Positions 2,778 to 33,185 of a DNA stretch of 34,717 nt are shown here, piece by piece. How positions within the stretch are numbered: position 1 is the first letter of the stretch; each line of letters starts with the position of its first letter. This stretch comes from Chloroflexota bacterium (GTDB lineage Bacteria > Chloroflexota > Anaerolineae > J036 > Brachytrichaceae), in NCBI GenBank assembly GCA_018969115.1, contig JAGWYZ010000011.1, positions 1 through 34,717 on the forward strand, in the 5' to 3' direction. The notes beneath the pieces were generated by a model. That model saw nothing but the letters and a program-made list of their open reading frames with translations, was not told where the DNA came from and did no database searches. Both the position numbers and the translations under genes were made by a program.

Positions 2778-2866
2778 CGGGGAGGCAGGGATTCGAACCC
2801 TGGGTCCAGTTTTACCCGGACAACCGCTTAGCAGGCGGCTCCGTTCGTCCACTCCGGCACCTCCCC
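2778..2866 (-). tRNA. tRNA-Ser, anticodon GCT
   Basis: This 89-nt class II tRNA reads AGC/AGU serine codons. The acceptor is GGGGAGG/CCTCCCC with G as discriminator, as expected for serine. The anticodon stem-loop CCGCCTGCTAAGCGG places GCT in the loop. The long variable arm (GTCCGGG...CTGGAC) and the T-loop GGTTCGAATCC are clear. The bases after the discriminator are TCCA rather than CCA, so CCA is probably added post-transcriptionally. It is the promoter-distal gene of a two-tRNA transcript. Confidence 0.95.
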
Positions 2867-2889
2867 TAAGCTAAATCAGAAAAGTTAAG

Positions 2890-2913
2890 TTGCAAAAATT
2901 TTTATTTTTGCAA
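2890..2913 (-). repeat. AT-rich hairpin between the two tRNA genes
   Basis: TTGCAAAAAT (2890-2899) and ATTTTTGCAA (2904-2913) form a perfect 10-bp stem with a 4-nt loop in the 62-nt spacer between the two tRNA-Ser genes. It could mark a processing site or a weak attenuator. No clean T-run follows on the minus strand. Confidence 0.5.
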
Positions 2914-2928
2914 TAAAACAATTCTTAA

Positions 2929-3017
2929 CGGAAAGGGTAAGATTCGAACTCACGGTGAGCCTAAAGACCCACAACGGTTTTCAAGACCGCCGCATTAAAC
3001 CGCTCTGCCACCTTTCC
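2929..3017 (-). tRNA. tRNA-Ser, anticodon TGA
   Basis: This 89-nt class II tRNA reads UCA and related UCN codons. The acceptor is GGAAAGG/CCTTTCC with discriminator G. The anticodon stem-loop CGGTCTTGAAAACCG carries TGA. A long variable arm (TGTGGGTC...GGCTCACC) and T-loop AGTTCGAATCT are present. No CCA is encoded. It lies upstream of tRNA-Ser(GCT) on the same strand, probably as one transcript. Confidence 0.95.
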
Positions 3018-3057: not shown

Positions 3058-3132
3058 AAGAATTTGCATAAATTTAAGTATCTTAACTCGTATCTTCTCA
3101 ATTATTGGGGTATCCCCTCAGAAATGTAATGT

Positions 3133-3208
3133 CTAACTCATTGTCACCTGGTGTTTAGAGCGGGTTTAACCCTCTTTAAACACCAGGTGATAGTAAGTTA
3201 GGCAAAAA
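3133..3208. repeat. Class A hairpin upstream of the tRNA pair
   Basis: A perfect 14-bp stem (TCACCTGGTGTTTA 3144-3157 with 3177-3190) sits inside a looser outer pairing (CTAACT 3133-3138 with AGTTAG 3196-3201). The right edge reads AGTAAGTTAGGCAAAAA, the conserved class A border. It lies behind the transaldolase stop codon, so it may also end that transcript. Confidence 0.75.
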
Positions 3209-6974: not shown

Positions 6975-7436
6975 ATGATTGTTTCAAATTTAACCCATAT
7001 TCATGCGCAAATTCGCATGACCCCCCATTTCGAAAAAGCATTTCAGTTTTTGAGCCAAGCTAATTTGGCCGATTTACCCGATGGTCGGGCTGTAATCGAT
7101 GATGACAATGTGTATGCCGAAGTGCAGTCGTATAACAGCAAACTCCATGCAGGGGCAAAATATGAGGCACATCGGCGTTATATCGACGTGCAATATGTGG
7201 TGTCGGGCGAAGAATATATTGGCTGGACACCCATCGAAAAGCTAACTGTAACTACCCAATATCATACCGAGCATGATTATTTGCTAGGTGATGTGGCTGC
7301 CAGTGATGTGATTTTAGTGCGATTACAAGCTGGGCAATTTGCCGTGCTTTACCCATTTGATGCGCACGCCCCACGTTTGGCAATCGATGCGCCGATGGCG
7401 ATTAAAAAAATTGTCGTAAAAGTGGCTGTTAATTAA
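6975..7436 (+). CDS. YhcH/YjgK/YiaL family protein (NanQ-like)
   Basis: A 153-aa cupin-like protein of the YhcH/YjgK/YiaL (DUF386) family. Landmarks are the HxxxxDVQYVVSGEE strip (AHRRYIDVQYVVSGEEYIGW), which carries metal-binding His and Glu, and the late FDAHAPRL motif. Members sit in sialic acid, xylulose or other sugar-acid operons; YhcH (NanQ) is reported to speed sialic acid anomer conversion. Here the gene is 2 nt after the FadR-type regulator and in the same run as a NanA-like lyase, which favours a role with a sialic-acid-like sugar. No Shine-Dalgarno is obvious, in keeping with coupling to the regulator. Confidence 0.9.
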   Translation: MIVSNLTHIHAQIRMTPHFEKAFQFLSQANLADLPDGRAVIDDDNVYAEVQSYNSKLHAGAKYEAHRRYIDVQYVVSGEEYIGWTPIEKLTVTTQYHTEHDYLLGDVAASDVILVRLQAGQFAVLYPFDAHAPRLAIDAPMAIKKIVVKVAVN

Positions 7437-7489
7437 TTGTGATTTTGATTCAGACTTAATTTGACAAGGTCAACTTAGAAAAGATGTAT

Positions 7490-7546
7490 GCCAATTTCAC
7501 TCTATTTGCCCTTACTTAGGGCAAGGGAGAATAGAGTGAAATTGGC
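7490..7546. repeat. Class A hairpin before the SBP gene
   Basis: GCCAATTTCACTCTATT (7490-7506) pairs perfectly over 17 bp with 7530-7546. Inside, TGCCCT (7507-7512) pairs with AGGGCA (7518-7523), leaving a 6-nt bulge. The right edge continues as TTGGCAAAAG. It separates the regulator/yhcH unit from the substrate-binding protein gene and may be a partial terminator or mRNA stabiliser. Confidence 0.8.
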
Positions 7547-7620
7547 AAAAGCGGCTAAGATATTGTCAAGCTAAATTCACTGAATCTATCAAAAACCAAC
7601 AAAATTTAAAAGGAGGCAAA

Positions 7621-9381
7621 ATGAAAAACAAATATATATCCTTGGCTATGGCGACCGGATTGGCGCTAGCAGCCTGTGCGGCACCTACCCCAACTGCCGC
7701 ACCCAAACCCGCTGCAACAGCAGCACCCGCCGCACCAGCGGCAACAACCGCGCCTGCCGCACCAGCACCGGCAGCAACGACCGCACCCGCCGCACCAGCG
7801 CCCGCTGCAACGGCTGCGCCTGCCGCGCCTGCCGCCGCCCCCATTGCCAACACTGGCAACATTATCATCGGTGGCTTCGATGTCGGCCCAGGTGGGTTCC
7901 CAGAGCGCTTTGATAACTTTAACGCAGGTGCAGGTTACTATGCATTTGAGTTTTATCTGAGCAAACTGGTGCGTTATTGTGATGTTACCCTGAGCAAGAT
8001 GTGCGGCGACTTGGCCGAGAAATGGGAAGTTGCACCCGATGGGAAGACGGTTACATTTTCGCTAAAAAATGCCAAGTGGCACGATGGTTCAGCTGTGACT
8101 GCCGATGACGTCGTTTTCACCATCAGCCGCCAACTTGATAAAGGCGCCAGCCGCTATGCCGGTTTCTTCTCTGCCATCAGCGGCAGCAAAGATTATGCCG
8201 ATGGCAAAGCCGATAAAGTCAGCGGTTTGGCCGCTGTTGACCCCAAGACTGTCAAGATTTCACTCGACAAACCCAATACGCCATTGCTCGACAGCTTGTC
8301 GTTTATTGGCATTATTCAGAAAAAGCAATGGGAAAAAGTGCCCCCCGCTGATATGCCCAAGAGTGATATTTGGAAGAACGGCATCATTGGCAGTGGCCCA
8401 TTCAAACTCTCGAAATATGTGACAGGCCAATATACCGAGTTTGTGCCATTTGATGATTATTTTGGTGGTAAGCCCAAAGTTGACAAACTCATTAACCGCT
8501 ATTTTCCCGAAGCTGGCACAGCCTTGATTGCCTTGCAAAAGGGTGAAATTGACTTCACTTATGTGACTGTTGATGAATTGGATAAGCTGAAGAGCAATGC
8601 CGACCTGAAGATCATTGAAGGGCCTTCACTCGTAGGGCAATCCATGTATTTGAACTTGCGCATTAAGGAGTTTGATAACAAGCTCGTGCGTCAAGCCATC
8701 ATGCACGCTGTTGACCGCGATACGATTATCAAGACCCTATGGAAAGGCACGGCCTTGCCAAGCAATTGTTTCTATTCACCGGCTGGCCCTTATAACAGCA
8801 AGAATGCTAACCCCTATAAGTATGACGTAGCCAAGGCCAAAGCCTTGCTCAAGGAAGCCAATGTCGATCTTGCAAAATTGGGCGAAATGGAATTCTTGAC
8901 CTATTATGGCGACCAATTGTCGAAAGACATGTTGGCTGTTATTTCTGAGCAACTGAAGGAAATTGGTTTGAAGACGAAGTTGCGCTTTGTCGATGTGCCA
9001 ACTTTCAATAGCGAGTTTTATACCAAAGAGCCAAAGTGGGCCTTGGGTTGGGTGGGTGCTGGTAACGGCCCCGAACCAGACAATGCCTATACCTCGCATC
9101 ACTCTAGCGAAGAATGGCCGAAGGGTATTAACATCAACGTGATCAAGAATGCCGAGCTAGACAAATTGCTCGACGCTGGTCGCGTAGAAGGTGATCCCGC
9201 CAAGCGCCAAGAGATTTATCAGAAGATTTGCCAATTGAGCAATGATGAAGTGCTCCGTGGTTATATGCTCGAAAGCACCCGTTATGGGGCCGCCAGCAAG
9301 AAACTCGGCAATTTCATCTACACCCCATCACCCGGTGGTGGTCGTTACTTGGCCTACCCAGAAAAGTGGACTAAGCAATAA
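7621..9381 (+). CDS. ABC substrate-binding lipoprotein, family 5 (oligopeptide type)
   Basis: A 586-aa extracytoplasmic solute-binding protein. Signal peptide and lipobox ALAAC (Cys19) are followed by a 60-residue Ala/Pro/Thr linker encoded by imperfect tandem repeats, then a family 5 fold (about 82-586) with WHDGSAVTADDVVFT, a landmark of DppA/OppA/NikA proteins. The family binds peptides, nickel, glutathione, opines or sialic acid (SatA). A strong Shine-Dalgarno (AAAAGGAGG, about 7609-7617) sits directly before ATG 7621. Two matching permeases lie downstream at 10440 and 11423, separated by an aldolase gene. No DppD/DppF ATPase genes occur here. Substrate unknown; context suggests a sugar acid or an acylated amino compound. 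Confidence 0.93.
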   Translation: MKNKYISLAMATGLALAACAAPTPTAAPKPAATAAPAAPAATTAPAAPAPAATTAPAAPAPAATAAPAAPAAAPIANTGNIIIGGFDVGPGGFPERFDNFNAGAGYYAFEFYLSKLVRYCDVTLSKMCGDLAEKWEVAPDGKTVTFSLKNAKWHDGSAVTADDVVFTISRQLDKGASRYAGFFSAISGSKDYADGKADKVSGLAAVDPKTVKISLDKPNTPLLDSLSFIGIIQKKQWEKVPPADMPKSDIWKNGIIGSGPFKLSKYVTGQYTEFVPFDDYFGGKPKVDKLINRYFPEAGTALIALQKGEIDFTYVTVDELDKLKSNADLKIIEGPSLVGQSMYLNLRIKEFDNKLVRQAIMHAVDRDTIIKTLWKGTALPSNCFYSPAGPYNSKNANPYKYDVAKAKALLKEANVDLAKLGEMEFLTYYGDQLSKDMLAVISEQLKEIGLKTKLRFVDVPTFNSEFYTKEPKWALGWVGAGNGPEPDNAYTSHHSSEEWPKGININVIKNAELDKLLDAGRVEGDPAKRQEIYQKICQLSNDEVLRGYMLESTRYGAASKKLGNFIYTPSPGGGRYLAYPEKWTKQ

Positions 9382-10332: not shown

Positions 10333-10443
10333 ATGCCGTCCTTAGTAGAGATAATAGTAGAGATAATAGTAGAGATAATAGTAGAGATAATAGTAGAGAT
10401 AATAGTAGAGATAATAGTAGAGATAATAGGAGCCATTCTGTGA
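10333..10443 (+). CDS. Candidate leader peptide MPSL(VEII)7GAIL (36 aa)
   Basis: ATG at 10333 opens a frame that reads four residues, then seven exact VEII units from the tandem array, then GAIL and a TGA (10441-10443). The TGA overlaps the GTG start of the downstream permease in the sequence GTGA, a classic translational-coupling arrangement. The peptide would be an acidic, very hydrophobic repeat. No Shine-Dalgarno is seen before the ATG, and a second plus-strand frame through the array is also open, so this could be chance. Reported as a candidate upstream ORF only. Confidence 0.35.
   Translation: MPSLVEIIVEIIVEIIVEIIVEIIVEIIVEIIGAIL
10345..10428. repeat. Perfect 7 x 12-bp tandem array (GTAGAGATAATA)
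   Basis: Seven identical copies of GTAGAGATAATA run from 10345 to 10428 without a mismatch. They are followed at once by GGAGCC, which with the preceding A makes the permease Shine-Dalgarno AGGAG (10428-10432). Exact copies imply recent expansion or contraction. The unit length is a multiple of three. Confidence 0.97.
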
Positions 10444-13567: not shown

Positions 13568-13590
13568 ATAATAGTTGAATAATTTAATAG

Positions 13591-13665
13591 TTGATTGGTT
13601 GATTGAGAACACACGAGCCATGATTTATCAATCAACCAACCAATCAACCAATCAACCAATCAACC
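13591..13665. repeat. Class B hairpin, word AATCAACC
   Basis: TTGATTGGTTGATTG (13591-13605) is the exact complement of CAATCAACCAATCAA (13641-13655). The right side is a tandem run of CAATCAAC-type units (about 13629-13665). It fills the gap between the diiron and alpha/beta hydrolase genes. Confidence 0.85.
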
Positions 13666-13689: not shown

Positions 13690-14742
13690 ATGAATTTACT
13701 ACCCGGTGTTACCTCTCATTATGTTCAAACCTCACGCTTGAAGATGCATTATTTGGACTATGGCCCTGATGATGGCATCCCCGCTATTTTGATCCACGGC
13801 AACCTCTCGACAGGCCGATTTTATGAGCATATTATGCCAAACGCCCCTGCTGGCTACCGATTCATCATGCCCGACATGCGCGGGTTTGGTGATACTGAGC
13901 GCCTGCCGATTGATGCCACACGTGGGTTGCGTGATTGGGCCGATGATACTTATGCGCTTGTGCAAGCGTTGGGTATCACTCAGCCAGTGCATTTGTCTGG
14001 CTGGTCAACGGGTGGTGCTGCCGTTGCAGCCTATGCGATGGATCGACCCGCGCAAGTGGCCTCGCTCACCTTTATTGACCCTGTCTCGCCCTATGGCTTT
14101 GGCGGCATGCATGTTGATGGAACCCCATGCTACCCCGATTATGCCGGTTCGGGTGGTGGCACGGGCAATCCTGACTTTGCCCAACGCATTGCCAATGGTG
14201 ACCGCTCGTCAGAATCGCCACTCTCGCCGCGTAATGTCATCAACTCGTCGTATTGGGCTGCCAGCCACCGCGAGCCAGCCGAGCGTGAAGACATGATTGT
14301 CGATGAATTGTTGAAATCGGTTACAGGCGACGACGGCTACCCCGGCGACTTTACTCCTTCGGCCAATTGGCCCGGCATTGCGCCCGGCACACGCGGCATT
14401 CTCAATGCCCTATCGGGCAAATATTGCAACTGGGCTGGTATTGTCGACATTACCCCCAAGCCGCCGATTTTGTGGGTGCATGGCAGTGCCGATATTGTGG
14501 TGGCTGATGGCTCAGCGTGGGAGATGGGCACACTTGGCAAGATGGGCATCATCCCGGGCTGGCCGGGCGATGCGGTTTTCCCGCCACAAATGATGGTGAC
14601 TCAAATTCGCAATGTGCTGCAACGCTACGCCGACCAAGGCGGCAGTGTGCAAATGGAAATGTTTGAAGGTTCAGGTCATGGCCCCGTGTTCGATGCTGCC
14701 CAACGCTTTAGCGACACCTTCTTTAGACACATCTCAAAATGA
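13690..14742 (+). CDS. Alpha/beta hydrolase
   Basis: A 350-aa cytoplasmic alpha/beta-fold hydrolase with no signal peptide. The catalytic triad is readable: Ser106 in the elbow GWSTG, Asp268 in WVHGSAD and His330 in GSGHG. The oxyanion region is HGNLSTGRF. An insert of about 90 residues (roughly 135-245) forms a large cap and explains the length above the usual 280. The family covers esterases, C-C hydrolases and haloperoxidase-like enzymes. A good Shine-Dalgarno (AAAAGGAG, 13677-13684) precedes ATG 13690. It sits after the diiron gene and before a dehydrogenase, consistent with stepwise breakdown of one substrate. Confidence 0.92.
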   Translation: MNLLPGVTSHYVQTSRLKMHYLDYGPDDGIPAILIHGNLSTGRFYEHIMPNAPAGYRFIMPDMRGFGDTERLPIDATRGLRDWADDTYALVQALGITQPVHLSGWSTGGAAVAAYAMDRPAQVASLTFIDPVSPYGFGGMHVDGTPCYPDYAGSGGGTGNPDFAQRIANGDRSSESPLSPRNVINSSYWAASHREPAEREDMIVDELLKSVTGDDGYPGDFTPSANWPGIAPGTRGILNALSGKYCNWAGIVDITPKPPILWVHGSADIVVADGSAWEMGTLGKMGIIPGWPGDAVFPPQMMVTQIRNVLQRYADQGGSVQMEMFEGSGHGPVFDAAQRFSDTFFRHISK

Positions 14743-14829
14743 AGGATTGGGGATTGGGGATTGGGGATTAAGGATTATTTTCAACTCATGACTCACGCGC
14801 AATCCCTAATCCCTATTCCTCAATCCTTC
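14741..14829. repeat. Class B hairpin, word GGGATT, with CATGACTCAC loop
   Basis: GAAGGATTGGGGA (14741-14753) pairs with TCCTCAATCCTTC (14817-14829), one mismatch. Both arms are runs of GGGATT-like units or their complement. The loop carries CATGACTCAC at 14787-14796. The stop codon of the hydrolase touches the left arm, and the dehydrogenase ATG lies 13 nt after the right arm. Confidence 0.85.
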
Positions 14830-14841
14830 ATCCTTTCCCCC

Positions 14842-15873
14842 ATGCTTACCCAACAACTTCGGTTTTATCCCAATCGGCGTATCGTCGCCGAGCCATATGA
14901 ATTGCCCCCCCCAGCCCCCAACCAAGTGCTGGTAAAGGTAAATCGTAGTGCCATTAGTGCTGGCTCTGAGATGAATTTTGTGCGGCACGGGCCGGAAGCC
15001 TATGGTATTGTGCCAAAGCCCGGCGATGCCAGCTATAACATCGGCTACATGGCAACCGGGCAGGTAGTGGCGCTGGGTGATGGCGTGACCCAAATTGCGA
15101 TTGGCGAGCGGGTGCTGACCGGGAGCACGCATGCCAGCCATTGCTTGGTTGATTTGTCGAAAACTGGCACGGTCATGGACCGCATCCCCGACAATGTGAG
15201 CGATGACGCGGCTTGCTTTGCCATTCTTGGCGATGTGGCCTTGCATGGGGTGCGTCGTGCCAATTTGCAAATTGACCAAGCCGTAGCGGTGTTTGGCATG
15301 GGCATGGTGGGGCAACTTACCATTCAATTGGCGCGTTTATCGGGGGCTTATCCGTTGATTGCGGTTGATTTAGATGACGCACGGTTGCAGATGGCTCGTG
15401 CCGCTGGTACAACCCATACTATTAACGCCAGCCGCGAAGATGCTGTCGCCCGTATTCGCCAAATTACCAGTGAATTGGGGCGGGTGACAGGGGCTGAGGT
15501 CATTTTTCATTGCACGCAAATTGCGGCCATTTTGCAATCGTTGCTTGAAGCCTGTGCCAATCGTGGCAGAATTATCTTGACTGGCAGCCCACCCGGGACG
15601 GCGACCATTCGGCTGCAAGAAGATTTGCTGCGCCGCGAGATTAGCATTACTGGTATTTATGAATCTGGCATGAACGAACCTCATGCTTATTGGGCGTTTA
15701 CCCGCGAACGTAACCGCCGCGCTTGTTTGCGTATGATGTCGCAAGGCACGCTGATGATCGAGCCGCTGATCACGCATCGGGTTTCATTCGCCCAAGCCCA
15801 AGCCATGTATGACATGATGGCCAGCAGCCCCAGTGGTTGGCTGGGGGTGGTGTTTGGTTGGGGCGAGGATTGA
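14842..15873 (+). CDS. MDR-superfamily dehydrogenase without an obvious catalytic zinc site
   Basis: A 343-aa medium-chain dehydrogenase/reductase. The GroES-like catalytic domain comes first; the Rossmann NAD(P) domain carries VFGMGMVGQL (glycine motif) and the acidic strand end IAVDLDD. The usual catalytic-zinc cysteine (GICGSD-type segment) is replaced by RSAISAGSEMNF, and no four-cysteine structural lobe is present, so the enzyme resembles the zinc-free reductase branch. ATG 14842 is chosen because the in-frame extension up to 14761 is only translated repeat DNA. No Shine-Dalgarno is visible. It probably oxidises or reduces an intermediate of the surrounding pathway. Confidence 0.85.
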   Translation: MLTQQLRFYPNRRIVAEPYELPPPAPNQVLVKVNRSAISAGSEMNFVRHGPEAYGIVPKPGDASYNIGYMATGQVVALGDGVTQIAIGERVLTGSTHASHCLVDLSKTGTVMDRIPDNVSDDAACFAILGDVALHGVRRANLQIDQAVAVFGMGMVGQLTIQLARLSGAYPLIAVDLDDARLQMARAAGTTHTINASREDAVARIRQITSELGRVTGAEVIFHCTQIAAILQSLLEACANRGRIILTGSPPGTATIRLQEDLLRREISITGIYESGMNEPHAYWAFTRERNRRACLRMMSQGTLMIEPLITHRVSFAQAQAMYDMMASSPSGWLGVVFGWGED

Positions 15874-15879
15874 GGGTTA

Positions 15880-15943
15880 GAGATTAGGGATTGCATGTGA
15901 CGCATGACTCACAAATAATCCTGAATTCTCACTCCCTAATCCC
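15880..15943. repeat. Class B hairpin, word GGGATTA, with CATGACTCAC loop
   Basis: GAGATTAGGGA (15880-15890) pairs with TCCCTAATCCC (15933-15943), one mismatch. The loop carries CATGACTCAC at 15903-15912. It lies just after the dehydrogenase stop and 10 nt before the next ATG. Confidence 0.8.
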
Positions 15944-15952
15944 TAAAATATT

Positions 15953-16915: not shown

Positions 16916-16920
16916 GGGTT

Positions 16921-17030
16921 TTAGAAGTTGAGAGTTGAGAGTTGAGGGTTAAGAATGAGACATAAGTCACGAGTCATGAGTTGCGACTCTTGACTCATCA
17001 CTTGTGACTGACCTTAACAACTTAAGGATA
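16921..17030. repeat. Class B nested hairpin, word GTTGAGA, CATGACTC-type loop
   Basis: Four near-copies of GTTGAGA (16927-16954) form the left side. GTTAAG (16948-16953) pairs with CTTAAC (17013-17018), AGTCAC (16965-16970) with GTGACT (17004-17009) and GAGTCA (16971-16976) with TGACTC (16991-16996). GAGTCATGAG at 16971-16980 is close to the inverted form of the loop word seen in other class B hairpins. Confidence 0.7.
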
Positions 17031-19649: not shown

Positions 19650-20777
19650 GTGAGCAAGCAAAAAACACGAGTGGTGGTAGCAATGTCAGGCGGGGTGGAT
19701 TCATCGGTGGCGGCGGCGTTGCTGGTTGAGCAAGGTTACGATGTGGTCGGCATTATGCTGCGCCTATGGGCCGAAGAGGGCAACGATGCCTATGGTCAAC
19801 CCAACGCCAACCGTTGTTGTGCCCCCGAAGCTGTCGCCGACGCCCGCGCCATCGCCCAACAACTCGGCATTCCATTTTACGATGTTCATGCTGAGCAAGT
19901 GTTTAAGCAGCGCGTGGTTGATCCTTGGATTAATGGCTACGCCGAAGCCACCACGCCCAACCCGTGCTTTAATTGCAATCGTAGCATTCGCTTTGGTTTT
20001 TTAATGCAGCGGGCACTGGCTTTGGGGGCAGACTATATGGCGACTGGGCATTATGCGCAGGTGCGGCAATATGATGACGCAGCGGCTGAGGCTGGGGTGC
20101 GTTTTGCCTTGGCGAAGGGGCGTGATGCCAAAAAAGACCAAAGTTATGTGTTACATGTGCTTGGGCAAAAAGATTTGCGGCGTGCCATGTTTCCATGTGG
20201 CGGTTATGTTAAGAGCGAGGTGCGCGAGTTAGCCCATAAATTTGGGTTGCCCACCGCCGAGCGCCCCGAAAGCCAAGACCTGTGCTTTTTGACACAAGGC
20301 GATTATCGCGGGTTTTTGGTGCGCCAAATGCCCGAAGTGGCGGTGCCCGGACCGATATTTACAGCGGCAGGTGAGCACATTGGGCAACACGATGGCTTGC
20401 CGTTTTATACCGTTGGGCAGCGCAAAGGGCTTAATTTGTCGGTTAAATCATCGACCAGTGAGCCAATGTTTGTGCTTAAGTTAGATGCCGCCCGCAATGC
20501 GTTGGTGGTTGGCCCAGCCTCAGCGCTGGGGGCGCGTCAGGTGATGGTGCGGGCTATGCATTATTGTGCCGATGTGCCGCCCAGCGGCCCCATCGCTGCC
20601 ACTGCTAAAGTGCGCTACAAGGCCAAAGAGGCCAGCGGCACGCTTTACCCCAACCCCAATGGCTCGGCGCGATTTGAATTTGATGAGCCGCAACGCGATG
20701 CCACCCCCGGTCAAGGGCTGGTGGTGTATGTGGGCGATGAGGTTGTGGGTGGCGGATTGATCGGCAGAAATGAGTGA
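19650..20777 (+). CDS. mnmA: tRNA-specific 2-thiouridylase MnmA
   Basis: MnmA adds sulfur to U34 of Lys, Glu and Gln tRNAs in the cytoplasm, using ATP and a persulfide relay. The PP-loop VVVAMSGGVDSSVAA is near the N-terminus. The two catalytic cysteines are in NPCFNCN (Cys of the first box) and ESQDLCFL (second box). The C-terminal beta domain ends in PGQGLVVYVGDEVVGGGLI. Length about 375 aa is usual. GTG 19650 places the PP-loop at residues 8-22 as in homologues; the TTG at 19611 would add 13 residues of likely promoter sequence. The stop codon lies in the left arm of a class B hairpin that separates it from the convergent UbiB gene. Confidence 0.96.
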   Translation: MSKQKTRVVVAMSGGVDSSVAAALLVEQGYDVVGIMLRLWAEEGNDAYGQPNANRCCAPEAVADARAIAQQLGIPFYDVHAEQVFKQRVVDPWINGYAEATTPNPCFNCNRSIRFGFLMQRALALGADYMATGHYAQVRQYDDAAAEAGVRFALAKGRDAKKDQSYVLHVLGQKDLRRAMFPCGGYVKSEVRELAHKFGLPTAERPESQDLCFLTQGDYRGFLVRQMPEVAVPGPIFTAAGEHIGQHDGLPFYTVGQRKGLNLSVKSSTSEPMFVLKLDAARNALVVGPASALGARQVMVRAMHYCADVPPSGPIAATAKVRYKAKEASGTLYPNPNGSARFEFDEPQRDATPGQGLVVYVGDEVVGGGLIGRNE

Positions 20778-20819
20778 ATGAGTGATTCTTTCATTCGGTC
20801 ATTTACTCATTCACTCATT
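20769..20819. repeat. Class B hairpin, word GAATGAGT
   Basis: AATGAGTGAATGAGT (20769-20783) and ACTCATTCACTCATT (20805-20819) are exact complements. The element overlaps the mnmA stop and ends 8 nt before the stop codon of the convergent UbiB gene, so it could serve as a terminator for both. Confidence 0.85.
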
Positions 20820-20826
20820 CATTCAT

Positions 20827-22563
20827 TTACCCAAACATCGCCTTTGCCAAGGCCAGCCCGCCGACCCCCAAAAACACGCCGCCCACGCCTACAAATTGGC
20901 TGATAAGCAAGGCTGTGCCACAGCCCATAAACACGGCAAAGATGATAAGCCAACTGAGCCGAGAAATACCATGCTCGATGCGGCGCAGATCGTTGGTGCT
21001 GGCTTGGCTCAGTTGGGTGCGTATTTCTAATTGCCCACTCAAGGCGCGTGACAGCACTTGATCGGCTTGGTTGGGCAATTGTACCGTTTGACGCAACAAC
21101 TTAATGACTTCATCCAGCACATCTTGCGCCCCGCGTTTGCTCGATTTTTGCGCCATGCCTTGGGCAAAGGGCTGAATCTCTTTCCAAGGGTTAAATTTGG
21201 GGTCGAGGGCGGTGCTCATGCCGCTCAAAATATTGGCGGCGCGCCCCAGATAAAGCATGTTTTGTGGCATTTGAAAGGGCAAAGTGCTGAGCAGATCCCG
21301 AAATTCGGCCACAAAGCTAAACATCTCGTCGAATGACACATTCACCAGATCGGTGGTGTTTAGCCCCCAAAATTTGTCAAACAACATCGATACTGCTTGC
21401 TCAATACGAAAAAGATCGGCCCCGGGCAAAAACATACCCATGCGCTGGGCCGCCGCCGTTACCCGTCGCGCATCTTTTAGGCTGGTGGCAATAATAATTT
21501 CACGCAGCTCTTTTTCATAGGCTTTAGGCACTGTGCCAACCATGCCAAAATCGATAAAAGTGAGGCGAAACGGGCGCGTGCCATCGGTAGGAACCTCAAT
21601 GTCGAGTTGGGTGGCCTGCGCCACATCGAGCGGCTGCACAAATAAATTGCCCGGGTGTGGGTCGGCATGAAAGAAGCCGTCGGTAAAAAATTGCTGCAAA
21701 TAGGTGTCGAACAATTTGCGTGCCACCGCCACCCGTGAAATATTGGCGCTGGCCAAGCCGTCATAATCGGTAATTTTGATGTCTTCGACATTTTCTAACA
21801 CCAACACGCGGCGCGTGGTGAGGGTTTTATAGGGCTTGGGAATCCGCACTTGGGCATCGTGGGCAAAATGATGGGCGAATAACTCGGCGTTGCGTGCTTC
21901 TTGCTCATAATCTAGCTCGGCCAAAATGCCATCGCTAAATTCACGCACCAAGTCATCGACATTGGCGCGTTCACGCACCAACCGATACCATTTGGCCCAG
22001 CCCATGATGGTTTTAAGCGAGCGCAGGTCGGTTGCTACAATTTGGTCGAGGTTGGGGCGCTGCACTTTTATAATCACGCGGGTGCTTTGGGTGATGGGTA
22101 ATGCGGCAGACGCGACATTGACATTTAACAAAGCGCGGTATGCCTGCCCAAACGAGGCTGCTGCGATTGGATCGGGTTCAAATTCGGCAAACAATTGGCT
22201 GATCGGTTGACCCAATTCATGCTCGATGGTGCGAATGACTTGGTCAGTTGGCTCAGCGGGCACGGCATCTTGCAAATCAGCTAACTCGGCGATAACGCTT
22301 GGCGGCAAAATATCGACGCGGCTGCTGAGAAATTGGCCGAGCTTGATCCATACCCCGCCCAAATCGAGGGCCAAGGCGCGAAATCGACGGGCAAAGACAA
22401 TCATGCGGCCCAATCGGCCTTGTGCCACCCGCGTTTGCCCAAGCAGTCGTGACAAAATTAATTCCCAAAAGATGAGGCTAAGAAATAAGCGTGCCCCAAA
22501 CCACAGGGCGCGTTGCGATCTACCACGAAGATTGGGTGGGGTGGGGGTGTTGTTTTGTCTCAT
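20827..22563 (-). CDS. UbiB/ABC1 (AarF) family atypical kinase
   Basis: A 578-aa membrane-anchored protein-kinase-like protein of the ABC1/ADCK/UbiB family, which supports quinone biosynthesis or lipid homeostasis through ATPase activity. Signature elements are in order: KLGQ in GGVWIKLGQFLSSR, the Ala-rich nucleotide loop AAASFGQ, the invariant lysine in RVIIKVQRP, catalytic HADPHPGNLF and metal-binding FIDFGMVG. Two C-terminal hydrophobic helices anchor it. ATG 22563 is preferred; an in-frame TTG at 22644 would add a low-complexity extension without a ribosome site. It is divergent from the next gene and convergent with mnmA. Confidence 0.93.
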   Translation of the reverse strand: MRQNNTPTPPNLRGRSQRALWFGARLFLSLIFWELILSRLLGQTRVAQGRLGRMIVFARRFRALALDLGGVWIKLGQFLSSRVDILPPSVIAELADLQDAVPAEPTDQVIRTIEHELGQPISQLFAEFEPDPIAAASFGQAYRALLNVNVASAALPITQSTRVIIKVQRPNLDQIVATDLRSLKTIMGWAKWYRLVRERANVDDLVREFSDGILAELDYEQEARNAELFAHHFAHDAQVRIPKPYKTLTTRRVLVLENVEDIKITDYDGLASANISRVAVARKLFDTYLQQFFTDGFFHADPHPGNLFVQPLDVAQATQLDIEVPTDGTRPFRLTFIDFGMVGTVPKAYEKELREIIIATSLKDARRVTAAAQRMGMFLPGADLFRIEQAVSMLFDKFWGLNTTDLVNVSFDEMFSFVAEFRDLLSTLPFQMPQNMLYLGRAANILSGMSTALDPKFNPWKEIQPFAQGMAQKSSKRGAQDVLDEVIKLLRQTVQLPNQADQVLSRALSGQLEIRTQLSQASTNDLRRIEHGISRLSWLIIFAVFMGCGTALLISQFVGVGGVFLGVGGLALAKAMFG

Positions 22564-23583: not shown

Positions 23584-23587
23584 GGGT

Positions 23588-23700
23588 GGCAAGTAGCAAA
23601 GTAGCAAAGTAGCAGGTTGCAAGTGGCAAAGTGGCAAGTGGTAATGAGTAGGTAATGGGTTTCAGGTTGCAACTCTGCAACCTGAAACCCTGCAACCTAT
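23588..23700. repeat. Class B hairpins, words AGTAGCAA and GGTTGCA
   Basis: Direct repeats of AAGTAGCA and AAGTGGCA units (23588-23640) are followed by a perfect 15-bp hairpin: GGGTTTCAGGTTGCA (23657-23671), loop ACTC, complement 23676-23690. The remaining gap up to 23790 holds AT-rich AAATTTT repeats flanked by GAGAG and CTCTC-like ends. Confidence 0.85.
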
Positions 23701-23804
23701 AACCTGCGACTGTTAAATTCAGCAAATTCGTTAACTATTTGAGAGTTAATTTTAAATTTTAAATTTTAAATTCTCAATTTTTAAATTCCCGCAGGAGGGA
23801 AATC

Positions 23805-25423: not shown

Positions 25424-25520
25424 GTCAATTACGAATTACAAATTACGAATTGCTTCGGTGACTTGTGACTCATGACTCACGAGTCATCTGTCCCAATGCG
25501 TAATGCGTAATGCTTAATAC
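25424..25520. repeat. Class B hairpin, word AATTACGA, with CATGACTCAC loop
   Basis: Left side: three AATTACGA/AATTACAA units (about 25428-25451). Right side: AATGCGTAATGCGTAATGC (about 25495-25513), an imperfect complement. The loop carries CATGACTCAC at 25471-25480 next to GAGTCAT. It ends before a GGGGAGG Shine-Dalgarno. Confidence 0.75.
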
Positions 25521-27221: not shown

Positions 27222-27273
27222 ATTTCATCATATTTAGATGCGCGAGATACCGCGCCTCTGAATATGATGAAAT
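27222..27273. repeat. Hairpin between the VWA and MFS genes
   Basis: ATTTCATCATATT (27222-27234) pairs exactly with AATATGATGAAAT (27261-27273), and an inner AGATGCGCG/CGCGCCTCT stem continues with one mismatch. The edge resembles class A but lacks the GGCAAAA flank. The MFS frame can be read back through it, which makes the earlier start (27216) unlikely. Confidence 0.8.
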
Positions 27274-28548: not shown

Positions 28549-28601
28549 CCAACTTCACCATATCCATCTGGCCATAGGCCAGATGGATATGGTGAAGTTG
28601 G
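28549..28601. repeat. Perfect 25-bp hairpin with 3-nt loop (class A)
   Basis: Left arm 28549-28573 and right arm 28577-28601 are exact complements with loop ATA. The right edge GGTGAAGTTGGCAAAAAA is the best class A border in the window. It lies between the convergent MFS gene and the isomerase operon and could stop both transcripts, although no T-run follows on the plus strand. Confidence 0.95.
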
Positions 28602-31230: not shown

Positions 31231-31306
31231 GAAACAGTTAAGGGTTGAGGGTTAAGGGTTGAGCGTTAAGAATTGACTGCTCTCAACGCTCAACGCTCAA
31301 CCTCAA
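31231..31306. repeat. Class B hairpin, word GGGTTGA
   Basis: Left side: units of GGGTTGA/GGGTTAA/GCGTTAA (about 31238-31276). Right side: TCAACGCTCAACGCTCAACC (about 31283-31302), an imperfect complement. It splits the operon between the second permease and the ATPase. Confidence 0.8.
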
Positions 31307-31310
31307 CTTA

Positions 31311-33053: not shown

Positions 33054-33178
33054 AAGTGGCAGGTGGCAAGTAGCAGGTGGCAAGTAGCAGGTGGCAGGTA
33101 GCAGATAGCGAGTAATCGTTTTTACTCAGCACTTGCCACTTGCCACTTGCCACACCTGCTACCTGCCACCGGCTACTT
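33054..33178. repeat. Class B hairpin, word GGTGGCAAGTAGCA
   Basis: The longest class B element. The left side is tandem GTGGCAGGTGGCAAGTAGCA-type units (33054-33112). The right side (33127-33178) is CTTGCCACTTGCCACTTGCC followed by CTGCTACCTGCCACC, its complement. The centre is AGTAATCGTTTTTACTC. It separates the SBP from the first permease, as an mRNA-stabilising or partial-terminating hairpin often does between an abundant SBP and its membrane subunits. Confidence 0.85.
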
Positions 33179-33185
33179 GTCTTTA

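Follow-up and report, generated by a model that had tools for sequence, protein, structure and literature searches.

Nine intergenic gaps in the 34,717-nt stretch of Chloroflexota DNA analyzed here (the window) raise the question of how two facing repeat arrays come to be complementary, and how they remain so when the repeat itself changes. An earlier note, made from the letters of the window, had described these gaps as short tandem repeats on the left with their complement on the right and a different word at every locus, and had argued that independent slippage cannot give matching arms, so that arm expansion must be coupled, for example by hairpin-templated replication. The window is contig C157 of a draft genome (G000; 4.61 Mb in 472 contigs, approximately 94% complete). 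The genes beside the gaps are ordinary, with DUF455, alpha/beta hydrolase, zinc dehydrogenase, AstE/AspA type, DHDPS family and tRNA methyl transferase (MnmA-type) domains.

The comparisons covered draft assemblies, partial genome samples and approximately 20 orthologous elements. The nearest relative, G003, belongs to the same genus; its copy of the hydrolase at 13690-14742 is 99% identical, and its contig C26 is collinear with the window at a DNA identity of 88-96%. G001, whose hydrolase is 94% identical and which is collinear over 2.7-17 kb at 72-89%, was used as the outgroup to both. In total, 0.57 Mb of G000 (0.44 Mb for the inverted 8-mer count) and 1.03 Mb of G003 were scanned, and genes were called with a simple codon-usage caller written for this analysis.

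Most of the gaps have a common architecture of a 7- or 8-bp tandem array, a loop and the same array inverted (Table 1). Folded as DNA, the gaps paired better than their shuffles (z -2.6 to -8.9). Five are clear two-armed tandem hairpins (13574, 14739, 20764, 31231 and 33054; z -5.0 to -8.9) and three are imperfect or composite (15866, 23586 and 25424, given as 15880, 23588 and 25424 in the earlier note; z -2.6 to -5.4). The description as an array plus its complement therefore held for most gaps but not for that at 16921 (16918..17030), which is essentially one-sided, as its GTTGAGA array has no complementary right arm and pairing is confined to the inner GTCACGAGTC part. At 23586..23707 the inner GGGTTTCAGGTTGCA stem supplies most of the pairing. 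The relatives differ at several of these gaps: at 14739..14831 both G001 and G003 have AATGAGTG arms instead, the hairpin at 15866..15946 is longer in G003 and has another word in G001 (AACGAGTA), and at 16918..17030 G001 has a GTGGCAA-type hairpin.

Table 1. Hairpins in the nine gaps of the window (z, pairing relative to shuffled sequence) and orthologous gaps with different words in G000 and G003.
Feature	Position	Remarks
Octamer hairpin, GTTGATTG/CAATCAAC	13574..13664	two units left, about five right; z -5.0; G003 site empty
Heptamer hairpin, GGGATTG/CAATCCC	14739..14831	begins over the stop codon of the ORF ending at 14742; z -6.1
Imperfect heptamer hairpin, GGGATTA, inner GTGACTC-type stem	15866..15946	z -2.6
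One-sided GTTGAGA array and inner GTCACGAGTC stem	16918..17030	z -2.7
Octamer hairpin, AATGAGTG/CACTCATT	20764..20832	between convergent genes; contains the stop codon of the ORF ending at 20777; z -5.1
Composite: left AAGTAGCA/GTGGCAA array, right CTGCAACC array, strong inner GGGTTTCAGGTTGCA stem	23586..23707	z -5.4
Heptamer hairpin AATTACG, right arm drifted to GCATTAC units, inner GTGACTC stem	25424..25520	z -3.7
Heptamer hairpin GGTTGAG/GGTTAAG, right arm CTCAACG	31231..31310	z -6.5
14-bp superperiod hairpin AAGTAGCAGGTGGC, inverted right arm	33054..33179	z -8.9
Word replaced	window 14743	GGGATTG vs AATGAGTG
Word replaced	L034:1298	TTAATGG vs ATGAGCC
Word replaced	L045:7154	GTTGAGG vs GATAGTT type
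Word replaced	L122:864	CTGAGTT type vs GTGGCAA type

Other repeats were also observed in the window. Near-perfect long hairpins with tiny loops and no tandem word (2633-2714, 3130-3204, 7489-7547, 27222-27273 and 28549-28601) form a separate class, and the one at 28549 is unchanged in G003. A perfect 39-bp inverted repeat with a 3-bp loop at the extreme end of the contig (34637-34717) may be a real element or an assembly-end effect. At 10343-10429, just upstream of a gene start, there is a perfect direct tandem repeat of 12 bp (TAGTAGAGATAA) that has no inverted partner and is present in approximately seven copies, compared with approximately three in G003.

A search for inverted tandem pairs beyond the window revealed a genome-wide class far above shuffled sequence. 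Inverted 8-mer pairs formed 48 clusters with at least three registers in G000 (0.44 Mb) and 131 in the scanned part of G003; first-order Markov shuffles gave 0-1 and 3-5, respectively, and sequence that was only reversed or only complemented gave 3-4 and 16-22. Among 594 intergenic tandem arrays, the period was 7 in 284 and 14 in 85, and 7-nt arrays were concentrated in intergenic DNA, as in STRR-like heptanucleotide repeats. The periodic hairpin elements totaled 169 (51 in G000 and 118 in G003, or about 0.9 and 1.1 per 10 kb), with a period of 7 in 144 and 8 in 25.

Contrary to the earlier note, the words of these elements are not specific to their loci. Approximately 28 word families recur, each up to 22 times, and most of the 169 elements belong to the GCCATGA, GGATGAA, GGTTAAT, GAATTAC, GTGCAAA and GGTTGATT families. 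Members of a family do not cluster locally (5 same-family neighbor pairs against 4.2 expected), and the birth of words from neighboring elements was rejected on this basis. The vocabulary varies between species: strict TTAATGG hairpins gave 33 matches in G003 and none in G001 or G002, GGATGAA hairpins gave 16, 3, 0 and 19 matches in G000, G001, G002 and G003, and AATGAGTG hairpins gave 1, 5, 0 and 2. The class was not found in 80 kb of G002, in 50 kb of E. coli or in 16 further relatives sampled at approximately 20 kb apiece; its distribution is patchy.

The loops are mostly locus-specific within these genomes. One loop word, TGACTCA/GAGTCAC, occurs in 19 of 117 loops, beneath nine different outer words, and only twice as an arm word. 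Two TTAATGG hairpins of G003 (L044:2122-2228 and L073:11648-11790) have in common a non-periodic core of approximately 108 nt with an inverted repeat of its own (GTTAGCATAC / GTATGCTAAC); this core is a further repeat element, nested within the loops of heptamer hairpins. The G-rich words were also observed to be rich in stop-start overlap motifs (ATGA, GTGA, TTGA and TAATG; 12 of 28 families against 6.3 expected, p = 0.011). As this test was post hoc, an origin of the words as repeated stop-start junctions was not relied on.

The arms are oriented in one way almost without exception. A complementary partner lay within 200 bp for 333 of 472 arrays of the 7- and 8-bp type, and the G-rich array was 5' and the C-rich array 3' in 253 cases against 6 (G-rich arrays: partner to the right in 126, to the left in 5; C-rich arrays: to the left in 127, to the right in 1), the arrangement of inverted G-first array pairs of the Xanthomonas type. 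Because a hairpin reads alike on both strands, this polarity is independent of the direction of replication or of the genes. It also holds far from the window. Of 301 sampled Chloroflexota, only 4 had GGATGAA hairpins, and three of these (G054, G090 and G272) belong to a single genus that differs from the window's genome in family and in class. In its G-first form this word gave 16 matches in G000, 17 in G272, 6 in G054, 1 in G090 and 19 in G003, and the C-first form gave none in any of these five genomes; in viral contigs there were 15 G-first stretches and no C-first stretch. Hairpins of GGGGATT were found in the viral contigs in neither polarity. A one-sided AGGGTAC heptamer array lies near a GGATGAA hairpin in G272 (L186:1953-2005), which suggests more than one word in that genus. 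No mechanism that we tested accounts for the polarity, and fold-back from a G-rich nascent 3' end may underlie it. The near-absolute G-first polarity is nonetheless a strong and simple constraint for any mechanism.

Comparison of orthologous gaps showed that, as the earlier note had anticipated, the word can change with pairing kept. At four gaps with flanks 94-99% identical between G000 and G003, both arms differ and pairing is present in both genomes (Table 1), and whole-stem replacement of this kind was found at two further gaps relative to G001. At window 14743, G001 has AATGAGTG, and in G003 the AATGAGTG arms enclose an internal GGATGAA array; in G000, AATGAGTG is gone from both sides, a common GAAAGGATGAAGGAT segment is kept and GGGATTG is present. 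The order of these states suggests that at this one locus the succession may have proceeded from the inside of the hairpin. The gap at window 13568 (GCAAAATAAATAAAAGGAG), between codirectional genes, is filled in G000 and empty in G003, and no clear target duplication was found at this sole empty/filled pair. The AATTACG hairpin at L109:2733-2953 of G000 has an additional segment of approximately 120 bp that G003 lacks; the ends of this segment are GTAGGAC/GTCCTAC-like, and it constitutes an insertion into a heptamer arm or next to one.

Orthologs with the same word differ in unit number, some in both arms with mirrored variant units and some in one arm only. For example, between L110 and L080 three variant units are mirrored, GCTATGA-GCCATGA-GCCGTGA standing on one arm and the exact complement on the other. 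Changes independent of the other arm were also seen: L095:16004 and L095:17047 show single-arm 7-bp slips, and at window 25424 one arm has changed en bloc to GCATTAC while the other is still GAATTAC; yet coupled changes of two arms occur alongside them.

Mirroring of variant units beyond the shared word, as hairpin-templated copying predicts, was confirmed by pooled tests. When the units of one arm were shuffled, the observed pairing exceeded every shuffle (z = 8.5, 119 loci). As the arms were found by complementary seeds, this test is possibly inflated, and a rotation null that keeps neighboring units together was chosen to lessen the inflation; it gave z = 4.5 over 116 loci, and the observed sum was not reached in any of 2000 draws. 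With reversed unit order as the null, p was 4e-7. A unit-shuffle test made earlier for each locus separately had given a weak result (7 of 62 loci at p <= 0.05), in contrast to the pooled tests. Pairing within a genome exceeded pairing of arms between genomes at only 8 of 11 same-word loci (p = 0.18). As this cross-pairing test was not significant, strict coupling of the arms was rejected and arm-to-arm copying is at most occasional. Arm lengths were weakly correlated (rho = 0.28). Growth from the hairpin tip was likewise rejected, the mismatch rate being flat from base to loop, end effects aside.

Together, these data indicate that coupling of the arms is real but not strict. We read them as inter-arm copying with frequent slippage within the arms. 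The argument that independent slippage cannot give matching arms was not supported, because two arms that already consist of the same word remain complementary in any register even when each slips on its own. An inverted copy is needed for the birth or replacement of a two-armed word, but not for routine changes in length. The earlier description was thus sound as to two-armed hairpins at most gaps, and its interpretation drew support from word change with pairing, a genome-wide class and mirroring; locus-specific words and strict, obligate coupling of the arms did not stand.

The explanation we favor, with a probability of about one half, is that the gaps hold dispersed DNA hairpin elements shaped at the DNA level by slippage, hairpin-templated copying and word turnover. 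Each element would begin with a G-rich array in which one word of 7 or 8 bp is repeated in tandem; after a short loop, this array would return in inverted form. Strand slippage would gain or lose whole units in either arm, and fold-back or template-switch synthesis at the hairpin would copy arm into arm, restoring complementarity and mirroring the order of variant units. In turnover, a new word from the limited genome-wide vocabulary would enter the same gap and the old arms would be lost; in at least one case the new word appears to adjoin the loop of the old hairpin. Pairing would be a product of copying and not of RNA selection, and the elements would be tolerated between a stop codon and the next start as an extra 50-150 bp. 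Some observations count against this model. Mismatches are not fewer toward the loop, and the excess of A-T over T-A (1604:1199) runs counter to the prediction of U-A enrichment under intrastrand switching (PMC8794818). Fold-back alone leaves the recurrence of the same words at unlinked loci unexplained.

A rival reading is insertion of mobile elements. If each word were a small non-autonomous hairpin element (MITE- or REP-like) inserting whole, with word change as insertion plus loss, then the limited vocabulary, the absence of local clustering and the species-specific words would be expected, as would the empty G003 site at window 13568. Words do spread as families between loci, because a GGATGAA hairpin lies in frame in a G090 gene, inside a Maf domain match that is full (186 positions of the profile, 219 residues), because the variant unit GGCGGAA is common to 8 of 17 non-identical GGATGAA hairpins of viral contigs, and because one contig classed as viral (L204, IMGVR_UViG_3300039109_000141) has two GGATGAA hairpins with the same arms and loop in different flanks (7034-7079 and 8633-8678). 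By the criteria for MITEs, however, the loops are mostly unique, the common core of L044 and L073 excepted, and the sole empty site has no clear duplication; in addition, unit numbers vary freely between arms. Candidate enzymes were also not found in G000. The Y1 transposase (PF01797) gave no match in G000 (approximately 94% complete), compared with 5 in G001, 3 in G002 and 5 in G003, and RAYT-driven REP elements were rejected for this reason. Reverse transcriptase was found in none of G000, G001 and G002, and the negative result in the first two led us to reject reverse-transcriptase-based writing. We consider insertion of whole elements possible, although we lean against it.

In-frame GGATGAA hairpins were observed within protein-coding genes of both G090 (L182:935-1879) and G272 (L183), one gene encoding Maf and the other a long ORF with a GSYYTP methylase-like stretch; the peptides they add include KDEGGKMKDE and HPSSFILHP. 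SbcD, a subunit of the hairpin nuclease, occurs in all of G000, G001, G002 and G003, in G001 as two pieces at contig ends, and loss of SbcCD was rejected as a cause of the elements.

A function at the RNA level, in which the arms would act as terminators, attenuators or mRNA-stability structures and pairing selection would keep them complementary as words drift, we judge unlikely. The predicted stems are strong, and their placement would suit such a role: elements begin a median of 4 nt past the upstream stop and end a median of 11 nt before the next start (n = 123), and they are rarer in divergent gaps (12.5% against 20.7%; p = 0.015), the share being 20.6% for codirectional gaps and 21.2% for convergent ones. 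This placement and the rarity in divergent gaps also fit insertion tolerance away from promoters. Under selection on RNA, G.U mismatches should outnumber A.C mismatches on the transcribed strand. In the stems of codirectional gaps, oriented to their genes, there were 89 G.U and 112 A.C mismatches (one-sided p for a G.U excess, 0.95), and as no excess was found, RNA selection was rejected; nor did this wobble test support the suggestion that the hairpins stop or stabilize transcripts. In addition, words are replaced wholesale, the empty site lies between codirectional genes, and Rfam gave no match at these gaps.

A bolder reading would be a genome-wide exchange of heptamer words, in which a dedicated or hijacked DNA synthesis writes one G-rich word into both arms and spreads favored words, so that families sweep and are replaced and a universal G-first polarity appears in distant lineages; we regard this as quite improbable. 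It is very improbable that the hairpins are capped breaks, in which both 3' ends were extended with the same G-rich word and joined head to head. The polarity of 253:6 would then be automatic and a weak correlation of arm lengths natural, but variant units are mirrored and there is no candidate enzyme, reverse transcriptase not having been found in G000. An artifact of short-read metagenome assembly is hardly credible, for although every element-bearing genome in this analysis is a draft assembly and contig ends hold some of the elements (e.g., the start of L101), the same hairpin occurs at the same gap in separately deposited assemblies, in some cases identical over 80 nt (L034:2213), loops are locus-specific and ORFs run in frame through copies.

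These elements bear on the question of how long paired stems arise and change their sequence with pairing kept. Hundreds of loci in close genomes allow the behavior to be counted, polarized by means of an outgroup and subjected to statistical tests. Should the DNA-level reading be true, compensatory-looking changes in intergenic hairpins can come from copying, and are not proof of RNA function.

The closest likeness is to the P6b arms of the group I intron in Nostoc trnL (tRNA-Leu UAA), which consist of heptanucleotide repeats of Class I (TDNGATT) or Class II (NNTGAGT) (PMC4476775, PMC3488679; Costa 2002 cited therein). These classes have repeatedly and independently replaced one another, and their origin is stated to be unknown (PMC4476775). 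As here, degenerate 7-nt repeats face their complement, unit number varies, sometimes on one side, and the whole stem is replaced by another word class without loss of structure; even the words are similar, an AATGAGT type having been replaced by a GGGATT type at window 14743. P6b, however, is one locus in a self-splicing intron with two classes, whereas the present elements comprise approximately 28 families, genome-wide and intergenic, in another phylum and with no intron. The only two tRNA matches of the window (2778-3017) are away from the gaps, and no intron family matched.

The GGGAATC arrays of Xanthomonas are described as 70-75 convergent pairs per genome, always with one array per strand, and are treated together with the GGGGA(C/T)T arrays of Nostoc as G-quadruplex repeats (PMC4692102). 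They too are intergenic G-rich 7-nt arrays whose length differs between close species, and the Xanthomonas pairs appear G-first if read as here. These arrays differ in having one word per genome, and word replacement and unit mirroring are not among the features described in the parts of that source consulted. Cyanobacterial STRR and TAACTGA repeats are likewise intergenic tandem heptamers, with mixed words in some genomes, but the TAACTGA repeats of Maribeggiatoa form 169 direct sets with only one indirect repeat (PMC4679880). REP and REPIN sequences with their RAYTs, as far as the consulted parts of the sources describe them, are also dispersed intergenic palindromes; their arms are not tandem words (PMC3733652, PMC3116915), and a RAYT-type Y1 transposase was not found in G000. 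Template switching is an accepted, documented mechanism that makes and repairs stems (PMC8794818). Its mutations make inverted copies and restore pairing as proposed here, but the documented cases concern RNA genes, without tandem arrays or word exchange. The kind of element is therefore known from single words or single loci, and here it is genome-wide, many-worded, fixed in polarity and word-switching.
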